A model generated the notes under the pieces. That model was given only the letters and a program-made list of their open reading frames with translations, searched no databases and was not told where the DNA came from. Both the position numbers and the translations under genes were made by a program. This document shows positions 1,793-54,925 of a DNA stretch of 64,000 bases, piece by piece. The DNA is from Pseudomarimonas salicorniae (GTDB lineage Bacteria; Pseudomonadota; Gammaproteobacteria; Xanthomonadales; Xanthomonadaceae), in contig NZ_JALNMH010000002.1 of NCBI RefSeq assembly GCF_023156535.1, forward strand, positions 248,001 to 312,000. The letters run 5' to 3'. Every line of letters starts with the position of its first letter. Within the stretch, counting starts at the first letter, position 1.

Positions 1793-2517
1793 GGGCGCAT
1801 TTTTGCCCTTCGCCCTGGCCGGCGAATGGGGCCTTTGTTCTGTATCCAGAGCCGGATCAAGATCAACATCAAGGGCGTTTCGAACCGTCCTTCGGCCGGC
1901 CCGAGTCACTTCTCTTTGCGTGCCCAAAGAGAAGTAACCAAGAGAAAGGGCACCCCGGTCAGGCGCCTTCCGGGCTTCCTGCCCTCCAGGTACGCGTGCG
2001 GGCTCCGAGGGTTCGCCGACAGCGCATCCTGCGCTGGGCGAACGCGAGCACGTCCCTATGCTCGCCCCTGCGGACCTTGTTCTCCGCCCGCCGCCAGACA
2101 GGGGCCCCATTGATCGGCCATCCTGGCCGCACAGCCCGTGGGCTGGTCGGGCAAGCCTTTTCAGGCGGCGTGTCGCGGAACGCGGCCCTCGAATCTCAAA
2201 GACCTCAACGCGCGTGGGTCCCGTGTGCAGCGCCGAGTAGCGCAGGAAACCGGCGGGGAAAGGCGTGGATGTTTGAGCGCATGGATGCGCGAGTTCACGC
2301 CGGCCGCCGGGTTCCGAGCAACGCAGGGCACCGGCATTGCGCAGCAATGACGGCGCGGAAGTCGGGTCGGCTTCTCTTTGGTTACTTTCTCTTGCCGACC
2401 AAGAGAAAGTGACTCGGGCCGACCGCAGGTCGGTCTGAAAGCTCTTGATCCTGTTCTTGATCTGGCTTCGCCCGAAAGGCCCATTCGCCGGCCAGGGCGG
2501 ACGGCAAGGATGCGCCC
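1793..2517. repeat. Large intergenic repeat element, copy 1 (725 bp)
   Basis: Fills most of the 908-bp gap between gcvP and purD. Related copies lie at 42642-43481 and 54018-54925. The outer ~150 bp at each end form a long imperfect inverted repeat that begins GGGCGCAT. Inside each arm lies an A/T-richer hairpin: CTTCTCTTTG-N6-CAAAGAGAAG on the left and CTTTCTCTT-N7-AAGAGAAAG on the right. The core holds further hairpins, for example GTTCGCC...GGCGAAC enclosing AGCGCA-TCC-TGCGCT, and GCGAGCA-N6-ATGCTCGC-like arms. Several frames stay open by GC bias, but none has a ribosome site or a recognisable protein. No transposase is present. It is either a non-autonomous mobile element or a structured noncoding element. 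Confidence 0.8.
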
Positions 2518-42641: not shown

Positions 42642-43481
42642 GGGCGCAAATTTGCCGTTCGCCCTGGCCGGCGAAACGGGCCTTTGTTCTGGACCCAGAG
42701 CCAGATCAAAGATCAACATCAAGGGCGTTTCGAACCGTCCTTCGGCCGGCCCGAGTCACTTCTCTTTGCGTGCCCAAAGAGAAGTAACCAAGAGAAAGGG
42801 CACCCCGGTCAGGCGCCTTCCGGGCTTCCTGCCCTCCAGGTACGCGGTCGGGTTCCGGGGTTTTTCGATAGCACGTCCTTGTCCTGGCGAAAAACACGCG
42901 CGCATCGTGCGCGCGTCCCTGCGGGCTCCTGCTGGGCATGGCCATCCTGGCCATGCTTATTCCAGCAGGTCCGGCCACGGGCATTCCGTGCCCGTGGCGT
43001 TCGCCGGGGCGACGCATGCGTCGCCTTTGTCCGGCTCACCCTCCACCCGCCCGCCGCCAGACAGGGGCCCCGTTGATCGGCCTTCCTGGCCGCACAGCCT
43101 GTGGACCGGTCGGGCAAGGCTTTTCAGGCGGCGTGTCGCGGAACGCGGCCCTCGAAACTCAAAGACCTCAACGCGCGTGGGTCCCGTGTGCAGCGCCGAG
43201 TAGCGCAGGAAACCGGCGGGGAAAGGCGTGGATGTTTGAGCGCAGGGATGCGCGAGTTCACGCCGGCCGCCGGGTTCCGAGCAACGCAGGGCACCGGCAT
43301 TGCGCAGCAATGACGGCGCGGAAGTCGGGTCGGCTTCTCTTTGGTTACTTTCTCTTGCCGATCAAGAGAAAGTGACTCGGGCCGACCGAAGGTCGGTCTG
43401 AAAGCTCTTGATCCTGTTCTTGATCTGGCTTCGCCCGAAAGGCCCAGTTCGCCGGCCAGGGCGAACGGCAAGAATGCGCCC
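42642..43481. repeat. Large intergenic repeat element, copy 2 (840 bp)
   Basis: Same ends and outer ~150-bp inverted arms as copy 1 (1793-2517), filling the convergent gap between tyrA and rsmE. The core differs from copy 1: from about 42856 to 43060 it holds a row of hairpins, including TTTTTCG...CGAAAAA, ACGCGCGC-ATCG-TGCGCGCGT-type arms, CCTGCTGG...CCAGCAGG enclosing GCATGGCCA-TCC-TGGCCATGC, CCACGGGCA-TTCCG-TGCCCGTGG, and GGCGACGCATGCGTCGCC. The distal ~400 bp again match copy 1. No coding gene. Confidence 0.8.
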
Positions 43482-54017: not shown

Positions 54018-54925
54018 GGGCGCATATTTGCCGTTCGCCCTGGCCGGCGAATAGGGCCTTCTTTCTGGATCCAGAGCCGGATCAAGATCAACATCAAGGG
54101 CATTTCGAACCGTCCTTCGGCCGGCCCGAGTCACTTCTCTTTGCGTGCCCAAAGAGAAGTAACCAAGAGAAAGGGCACCCCGGTCAGGCGCCTTCCGGGC
54201 TTCCTGCCCTCCAGGTTCGCGTGCGGGCTCCGGGGTTTTTCGACAGCACGTCCTTGTCCTGGCGAAAAACACGCGCGCATCGTGCGCGCGTCCCTGCGGG
54301 CTCCTGCTGGGCATGGCCATCCTGGCCATGCTTATTCCAGCAGGTCCGGCCACGGGCATTCCGTGCCCGTGGCGTTCGCCGGGGCGACGCATGCGTCGCC
54401 TTTGTCCGGCTCACCCTCCACCCGCCCGCCGCCAGACAGGGGCCCCGTTGATCGGCCTTCCTGGCCGCACAGCCCGTGGACCGACCGGGCAAGGCTTTTC
54501 AGGCGGCGTGTCGCGGAACGTGGCCCTCGAATCTCGAAAACCTCATTGCGCGTGGGTCCCGTGTGCAGCGCCGAGTAGCGCAGGAAGCCGGCGGGGAAAG
54601 GCGTGGATGTTTGAGCGCAGGGATGCGCGAGTTCACGCCGGCCGCCGGGTTCCGAGCAACGCAGGGCACCGGCATTGCGCAGCAATGACGGCGCGGAAGT
54701 CGGGTCGGCTTCTCTTTGGTTACTTTCTCTTACGGCGGACCTCCTGTCCGCCGCCCTTCGGGCCGCCTGCGGCGTTCGGCCGCGCTCCTGCGCGGCTCGT
54801 GCCGATCAAGAGAAAGTGACTCGGGCCGACCGCAGGTCGGTCTGAAAGCTCTTGATCCTGTTCTTGATCTGGCTTCGCCCGAAAGGCCCATCTCGCCGGC
54901 CAGGGCGAACGGCAAACTTGTGCCC
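54018..54925. repeat. Large intergenic repeat element, copy 3 (908 bp) with a 69-bp insertion
   Basis: Closest to copy 2 (42642-43481), including the same row of hairpins in the core, and with the same inverted ends. It differs by a 69-bp insertion at 54732-54800 placed exactly in the loop of the right-hand CTTTCTCTT/AAGAGAAAG hairpin. The insertion itself holds GGCGGAC-CTCCT-GTCCGCC and further short GC inverted repeats. It fills most of the convergent gap between mazG and the first subtilisin. The remaining 54926-54979 shows nothing. Confidence 0.8.

Follow-up and report, generated by a model that had tools for sequence, protein, structure and literature searches.

A dispersed structured repeat in Pseudomarimonas salicorniae carries divergent units with predicted triplex pseudoknots and candidate CsrA/RsmA hairpins

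The window analyzed here, a stretch of 64,000 nucleotides from Pseudomarimonas salicorniae, contains copies of a dispersed, non-coding, intergenic element that is probably mobile. Comparative analysis shows that the two units of each element end in a predicted H-type pseudoknot with a parallel major-groove triple helix, folded on one definite strand, and this unit structure is well supported at the sequence level. Our preferred reading, to which we give an even chance, is that a transcript arriving from either side of the element would end in the triplex pseudoknot, which would protect its 3' end, and that in CsrA-bearing hosts it would also carry CsrA sites. The element is undescribed as far as Rfam and the searched literature show, and its broad kind is that of a dispersed structured repeat. 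The window gave no Rfam match at the gathering score, a relaxed threshold on the element returned sub-threshold noise only, and the literature searched on such repeats and sequences contained neither the element's sequences nor any account of it.

Copies and boundaries of the element

The initial annotation described three copies of the repeat in the 64 kb. Their coordinates were exact (Table 1), but the genome as a whole (4.54 Mb, 32 contigs) contains 11 complete copies and at least two that are truncated at contig ends. Copy 1 is 97-98% identical over 725 bp to copies on contigs C13 and C4, although the loci are unrelated, and homology among the three breaks off sharply at GGGCGC...GCGCCC, which shows that the repeat is dispersed. 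Complementarity between the element ends was 77% over the outermost 60 bp and 77-80% over about 150 bp across both ends. The long inverted arms of the initial annotation are real, but the halves do not mirror each other over their full length: copy 1 carries a type-1 domain on the left and a type-2 domain on the right, and the inversion concerns the ends and the pseudoknots.

The element has terminal inverted repeats and contains no ORF of a known coding family, as in MITEs, and the ORFs spanning the copies gave no Pfam match. Since no coding family matches these ORFs, genes called at the elements are probably false, which had been anticipated.

Extra interior hairpins account for the greater length of copies 2 and 3 (840 and 908 bp). 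An interior block at 42880-43046 in copy 2 and 54255-54421 in copy 3, not found in copy 1, holds the added hairpins GGCCATCCTGGCC, CCACGGGCATTCCGTGCCCGTGG, and GGCGACGCATGCGTCGCC. In copy 3, the right pseudoknot has an insert with a further hairpin (54732-54795) within its stem-2 loop, and this insert recurs in the copies on contigs C1 and C14. The diverged copy on contig C11 has inverted GTAGGAGCC REPs on both flanks, as if it had been placed inside a REPIN.

Each element is composed of two units diverging outward; in copy 1, the left unit is read from the minus strand and the right unit from the plus strand. From the element centre to the outside, a unit consists of hp5 (CCC-GNA-GGG), hp4, hp3, hp2, the pseudoknot, and one more hairpin. 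This structured unit, roughly 200 nt long and found twice in each element, is the conserved payload, and relatives share its core but not the outer ends.

Table 1 Coordinates of the element copies in the window and of their predicted structural parts.
Feature	Position	Strand	Details
Element copy 1 (725 bp)	1793..2517	no strand	Flanked by gcvPB (+) and purD (+); ends from 11-copy alignment and BLAST against own genome
Element copy 2 (840 bp)	42642..43481	no strand	Gap between convergent tyrA-like (+) and rsmE-like (-) genes
Element copy 3 (908 bp)	54018..54925	no strand	Gap between convergent mazG (+) and subtilase (-) genes
Left terminal inverted repeat, copy 1	1793..1826	+	GGGCGCAT..GGCGAA; 11-copy alignment
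Right terminal inverted repeat, copy 1	2484..2517	-	11-copy alignment
Left unit pseudoknot, copy 1	1902..1956	-	R1 model 82.6 bits, E=3e-19; covariation; triplex matching
Parts of left pseudoknot, copy 1	S1a 1952-1949; L1 1947-1940; S2a 1939-1925; S1b 1924-1921; S2b 1918-1904	-
Left unit type-1 5' domain, copy 1	1957..2104	-	Closing stem Pa, stem Pb, hp5, hp4, hp3, hp2
Left unit hairpins, copy 1	hp4 2065-2044; hp3 2043-2011	-	hp3 loop AGGAU; covariation in 55-sequence alignment
Right unit type-2 5' domain, copy 1	2205..2362	+	Covariation in 12-sequence alignment; fold z -4.5
Hairpin GCGC-AUGGAU-GCGC in right type-2 domain, copy 1	2277-2290	+
Right unit pseudoknot, copy 1	2363..2416	+	R1 model 46.5 bits, E=5e-10
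Parts of right pseudoknot, copy 1			S1a GGUCGG / S1b CCGACC; L1 UUCUCUUU re-matched to purine strand AAGAGAAA
Left pseudoknot, copy 2	42752..42806	-	R1 model
Right pseudoknot, copy 2	43326..43379	+	R1 model
Left pseudoknot, copy 3	54127..54181	-	R1 model
Right pseudoknot, copy 3	54701..54823	+	30.8 bits; stem-2 loop split by extra hairpin insert

Pseudoknot and triple helix

The pseudoknot model reached E = 3e-19 in all three window copies, and the interior folding z-scores (-3.9 and -4.5) were far from chance, in agreement with the folded interior first noted. Both of the A/T-richer hairpins quoted in the initial annotation are present, but what had been taken for hairpins is actually the stem of a pseudoknot. 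The suggestion that this large structured repeat could be an RNA was put to a compensatory-change test set beforehand, which it passed strongly beyond shuffled and slid controls. Across 43 distinct pseudoknot sequences, 94.6% of cells were paired. Double changes were found at 11 pairs versus 5.3 after shuffling, a count that 0 of 500 shuffles equalled, and the covariation score was 0.262 compared with 0.117 for shuffled and at most 0.085 for slid alignments. Helix S1, in which a loop pairs with upstream sequence, covaries at four of its five pairs. Two wobbles are conserved (G-U in 25 cells and U-G in 25 cells), and because they would become A-C mismatches on the opposite strand, the folded strand is fixed.

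Loop 1 (UUUCUCUU) is parallel to the stem-2 purine strand (AAAGAGAA), matches it in order, and follows the U-A-U / C+-G-C code. This canonical triplex code was found in 336 of 344 cells in one register, while the other registers reached at most 175. Where stem 2 changes across families, loop 1 re-matches it (UUUCUUUU/AAAGAAAA, UUUUCUUU/AAAAGAAA, UUCUCUUU/AAGAGAAA, CUUUCUUU/GAAAGAAA, and UCUCUUUU/AGAGAAAA), and versions of loop 1 and stem 2 that are one base longer or shorter show matched indels. In a diverse set, the full loop 1 match was present in 31 of 43 distinct combinations; when loop 1 was exchanged at random among the sequences, full matches averaged 6.7 and never exceeded 15 in 2000 shuffles. 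We infer that A-form pseudoknot geometry would suit this arrangement, with loop 1 following the first 8 of 15 bp from the junction and then crossing the deep groove over the remaining 6-7. Loop 1 was also considered as the strand of an antiparallel duplex, and this was rejected: it accounted for 327 cells including wobbles, compared with 336 for the parallel strand, failed at the covarying position, and gave 9 full matches versus 31 for the parallel third strand.

Covariation of the 5' domain

Upstream of the pseudoknot, the alignments show the predicted hairpins hp5-hp4-hp3-hp2, in this order, within a closed multibranch. In the type-1 domain, double changes occur in 54 of 76 pairs (55-sequence alignment), amounting to 563 double-change cells versus 153.5 shuffled and at most 121 slid, with a score of 0.375 versus 0.124. 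All eight pairs of the hp4 helix covary and 99.8% of its cells are paired. The type-2 domain, which forms the right unit in the window, shows double changes in 31 of 65 pairs (12 sequences). Over the type-1 structure, G-U cells outnumbered A-C cells by 123 to 48; outside stem 2 and the loop-closing column, the excess was modest (54 versus 32, p=0.02, with non-independent cells).

Such covariation, like the wobble bias, would also be compatible with selection acting on a single strand of DNA in transposition, and RNA of the element may be absent from the cell. REPINs are inverted doublets with compensatory changes too (PMC3116915), so covariation alone does not decide against a role as single-stranded DNA. 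A role in transposition is the main rival to our reading. The element would then be a giant REPIN- or MITE-like DNA element whose folds are read by a transposase in single-stranded DNA, either in a transposition intermediate or in a cruciform, with any RNA incidental. This is consistent with the inverted doublet, the sharp ends, and the near-identical dispersed copies, and a pyrimidine-motif triplex is possible in DNA as well. We nevertheless consider it somewhat unlikely, in part since each strand has one correctly oriented unit, on the 3' side, whereas IS200/REPIN ends are read together on one strand.

GGA loops and CsrA/RsmA

The loops of hp4 and hp3 contain GGA in 48 and 54 of 55 sequences, respectively. 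The stems under these loops occur in 19 versions for hp4 and 28 for hp3, whereas the loops are constant as CA(N)GGANG, which is the CsrA/RsmA consensus; the commonest forms are CATGGATG, CAGGGATG, CAGGATG, and CAGGACG. In 6 of the 11 copies in this genome, the left hp4 loop is ACGAU instead of GGA. Constant loops on changing stems bear on the idea that the elements are selfish palindromic repeats, or BIME-like mosaics, with no cellular role, whose covariation comes from homogenisation by template switching or gene conversion. Homogenisation yields palindromes rather than such loops, and it would not maintain a pseudoknot helix together with a parallel third strand across families. Although the Russian-doll arrangement, in which REP/BIME and further hairpin modules are nested, is in keeping with this idea, we find it very improbable.

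The binding consensus of Rsm proteins is A/UCANGGANGU/A (PMC4353343), and the units contain several stem-loops with A(N)GGA in the loop (consensus CANGGANG), as expected of RNAs that bind CsrA/RsmA. We regard the GGA hairpins as candidate CsrA/RsmA sites. Upstream of pseudoknots in distant genomes, GGA loops were found in 40 of 206 hairpins (19%) versus 24 of 547 (4%) in the flanks (p=1e-9), while TCC loops were not enriched in the same comparison.

The genome studied here has one CsrA. Units were readable in 33 genomes, comprising 25 with CsrA and 8 without. Of the units from CsrA-bearing genomes, 46 of 69 had ANGGAN hairpins ahead of the pseudoknot, compared with 0 of 35 from CsrA-less genomes. 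At the genome level, 16 of the 25 CsrA-bearing genomes were positive and 9 had no such hairpin near the pseudoknot (p=0.0027), an association that is not phylogenetically independent, as the CsrA-less set consists of three families, one of which supplies six of the eight genomes. With only three CsrA-less families, the association is suggestive rather than decisive.

The CsrA-less genomes retain the pseudoknot without the GGA hairpins. On the side of a DNA element, this could mean that the pseudoknot is the part needed for spreading. However, a DNA-only role leaves the CsrA-consensus loops, and their absence in CsrA-less genomes, unexplained, and it is on account of both that we favor an RNA role over a single-stranded DNA role. 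The divergent units, the multiple ANGGAN hairpins, and the co-occurrence with CsrA could also point to CsrA/RsmA decoys, that is, two divergent CsrB/RsmZ-type sRNAs that start from promoters near the element centre and have their 3' end protected by the pseudoknot. Xanthomonas RsmU, a 3'UTR-derived RNA that sequesters RsmA, provides a precedent (PMC7694677). We judge this to be quite improbable: nothing resembling a conserved promoter was noticed at the centre, which varies more than any other part and frequently contains inserted modules, the element is kept in CsrA-less genomes, and the 3'-side position fits read-through better.

Distribution and gene position

At E<=1e-4, the pseudoknot model found matches in 34 of 299 sampled Pseudomonadota, and single genomes gave as many as 19; the carriers named in a motif scan were Dyella, Dokdonella, Aquimonas, Chiayiivirga, and other Lysobacterales. 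Distant units mostly form divergent pairs 400-600 bp apart, and a few form convergent pairs or tandem arrays. Elements were located in convergent gene gaps in 20 of 45 cases versus 16 of 85 background gaps (p=0.0035) and more rarely in divergent gaps (3 of 45 versus 18 of 85, p=0.04), both approximate counts, with genes called by codon-position GC. The window copies follow gcvPB, the tyrA-like gene, and mazG, respectively.

In Dyella amyloliquefaciens and a Lysobacterales MAG, units follow one another directly in tandem, two or three at a time, so what evolves may be the single unit and not the inverted pair. In a genome from another family of the same class (G485), divergent pseudoknot units 2.8 kb apart enclose two ORFs of 130 and 286 aa. 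The 286-aa ORF looks HEPN-like by eye, and the pair begins right after gcvPB, the gene that also precedes copy 1 in the window.

Outer ends and probable mobility

The outer ends differ by lineage: this genome has GGGCGCA...TGCGCCC, another has TTGATACCGGACTGGCAAG..., and Dyella has other repeats. The terminal 22-mer GGGCGCATATTTGCCGTTCGCC also opens two other repeat families in the same genome (contigs C27, C28, C32, C1, C4, C12, C29, and C30). One is a 265-bp BIME-bearing family with inverted GTAGGAGCG REPs, a GGTGCGCC hairpin, and the end ..CTTTGCGCCC (40 places scored of 384 candidates), and the other is shorter, with the GGTGCGCC module alone. One set of ends carries different interiors, and outer ends common to other repeat families are a further point in favor of a DNA element. 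An autonomous parent was sought through the 22-mer, but the 11 extra places read were mostly these two short repeat families.

No unit was found beside gcvPB or purD in 12 related genomes, where gcvPB and purD are non-adjacent and no clean joined empty site for copy 1 was found. By eye, no target-site duplication was visible in the flanks of the copies in this genome, and phage and plasmid records gave no match to the element.

A RAYT/REPIN origin was rejected. The RAYTs of this genome are flanked by other GTAG REPs and never by the element, 0 units occurred in 21 Y1_Tnp loci, and Y1_Tnp is missing from three genomes rich in units (G505, G426, and G544). An obligatory partnership with RAYTs is excluded, and the absence of a transposase reported at the outset holds. 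That no Y1 transposase lies near any unit, and that three unit-rich genomes have none, also argues against a DNA element.

Of the three Y1 transposases in this genome, L149 is flanked by GTAGGAGCGSACATGG REPs and L150 by GTAGGAGCCAGCTTGCTGGCGA REPs, while L148 adjoins GGGGTCAGAG repeats that resemble TIRYT ends. In Dyella silvae, nesting of the Russian-doll kind was seen, with an outer CCCCTCACCCCAACCCTCTCCCC palindrome and a CCCAGCGAAAGCTGG palindrome around divergent units and a GTAGGAGCGC BIME at the centre of some copies.

Proposed mechanism and significance

Since the units diverge, the element would act as a bidirectional mRNA 3' end. Read-through from a gene on either flank would give a transcript that ends with exactly one correctly oriented unit. 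There, the triplex pseudoknot may block the 3'-to-5' exonucleases PNPase, RNase R, and RNase II and thereby stabilise a processed 3' fragment or the mRNA upstream. Where the host has CsrA/RsmA, this protein would be bound by the GGA hairpins, and many transcripts could jointly titrate it or gain stability from it. The element itself would be moved by trans-acting machinery that reads the lineage-specific outer ends (here GGGCGCA..TGCGCCC), which also border unrelated interior modules. A broader version, which we think unlikely, is that widespread mobile elements spread a bidirectional triplex-pseudoknot 3'-end module that protects transcripts, with CsrA-binding hairpins added in CsrA-bearing hosts, so that the dispersed copies would jointly act as an evolvable buffer of CsrA/RsmA across the genome.

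Palindromic repeats of the dispersed kind are commonly written off as junk or RAYT parasites, whereas this family has an elaborate fold, with a covarying pseudoknot and a predicted triple helix that covaries as well, and it recurs across Pseudomonadota. Were it transcribed, the family would be the bacterial equivalent of triplex elements that guard RNA 3' ends elsewhere. The link to CsrA presence suggests a way, open to testing, for mobile DNA to rewire a global post-transcriptional regulator, and the element flags places at which annotated genes are likely to be false.

Comparison with known systems

Like REP, BIME, and REPIN sequences with their RAYTs, the element is intergenic and multicopy and forms structured inverted doublets. 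It differs in being about 10 times larger, in carrying a triplex pseudoknot, and in having a RAYT neither nearby nor required; despite the doublet layout, its conserved unit is without the GTAG/CGTC tag. With bacterial MITEs (Correia/NEMIS, ERIC, and RUP), it shares terminal inverted repeats, dispersal, a lack of coding capacity, and probable transcription with flanking genes. In contrast to them, no parent insertion sequence or target-site duplication was found for it, and its ends vary by lineage while the core is kept across families. CsrB, RsmX/Y/Z, and RsmU similarly have several stem-loops with the CANGGANG motif, and RsmU also comes from a 3' UTR. Unlike these RNAs, the element is multicopy, dispersed, pseudoknot-ended, and outside Rfam, and its CsrA sites are predicted from sequence.

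Triplex H-type pseudoknots are known from telomerase RNA and from the SAM-II and preQ1-II riboswitches. In telomerase RNA and SAM-II, loop 1 lies in the major groove of stem 2 and forms U-A-U / C+-G-C triples, and ENE stability elements protect RNA 3' ends through a triple helix. The predicted placement of loop 1 in the stem-2 major groove is the likeness to the telomerase and SAM-II type. The element has no sequence or Rfam relation to telomerase RNA, SAM-II, preQ1-II, or ENE and no evident ligand domain, and it differs from all of them in being bacterial, repeated, and arranged in divergent pairs.
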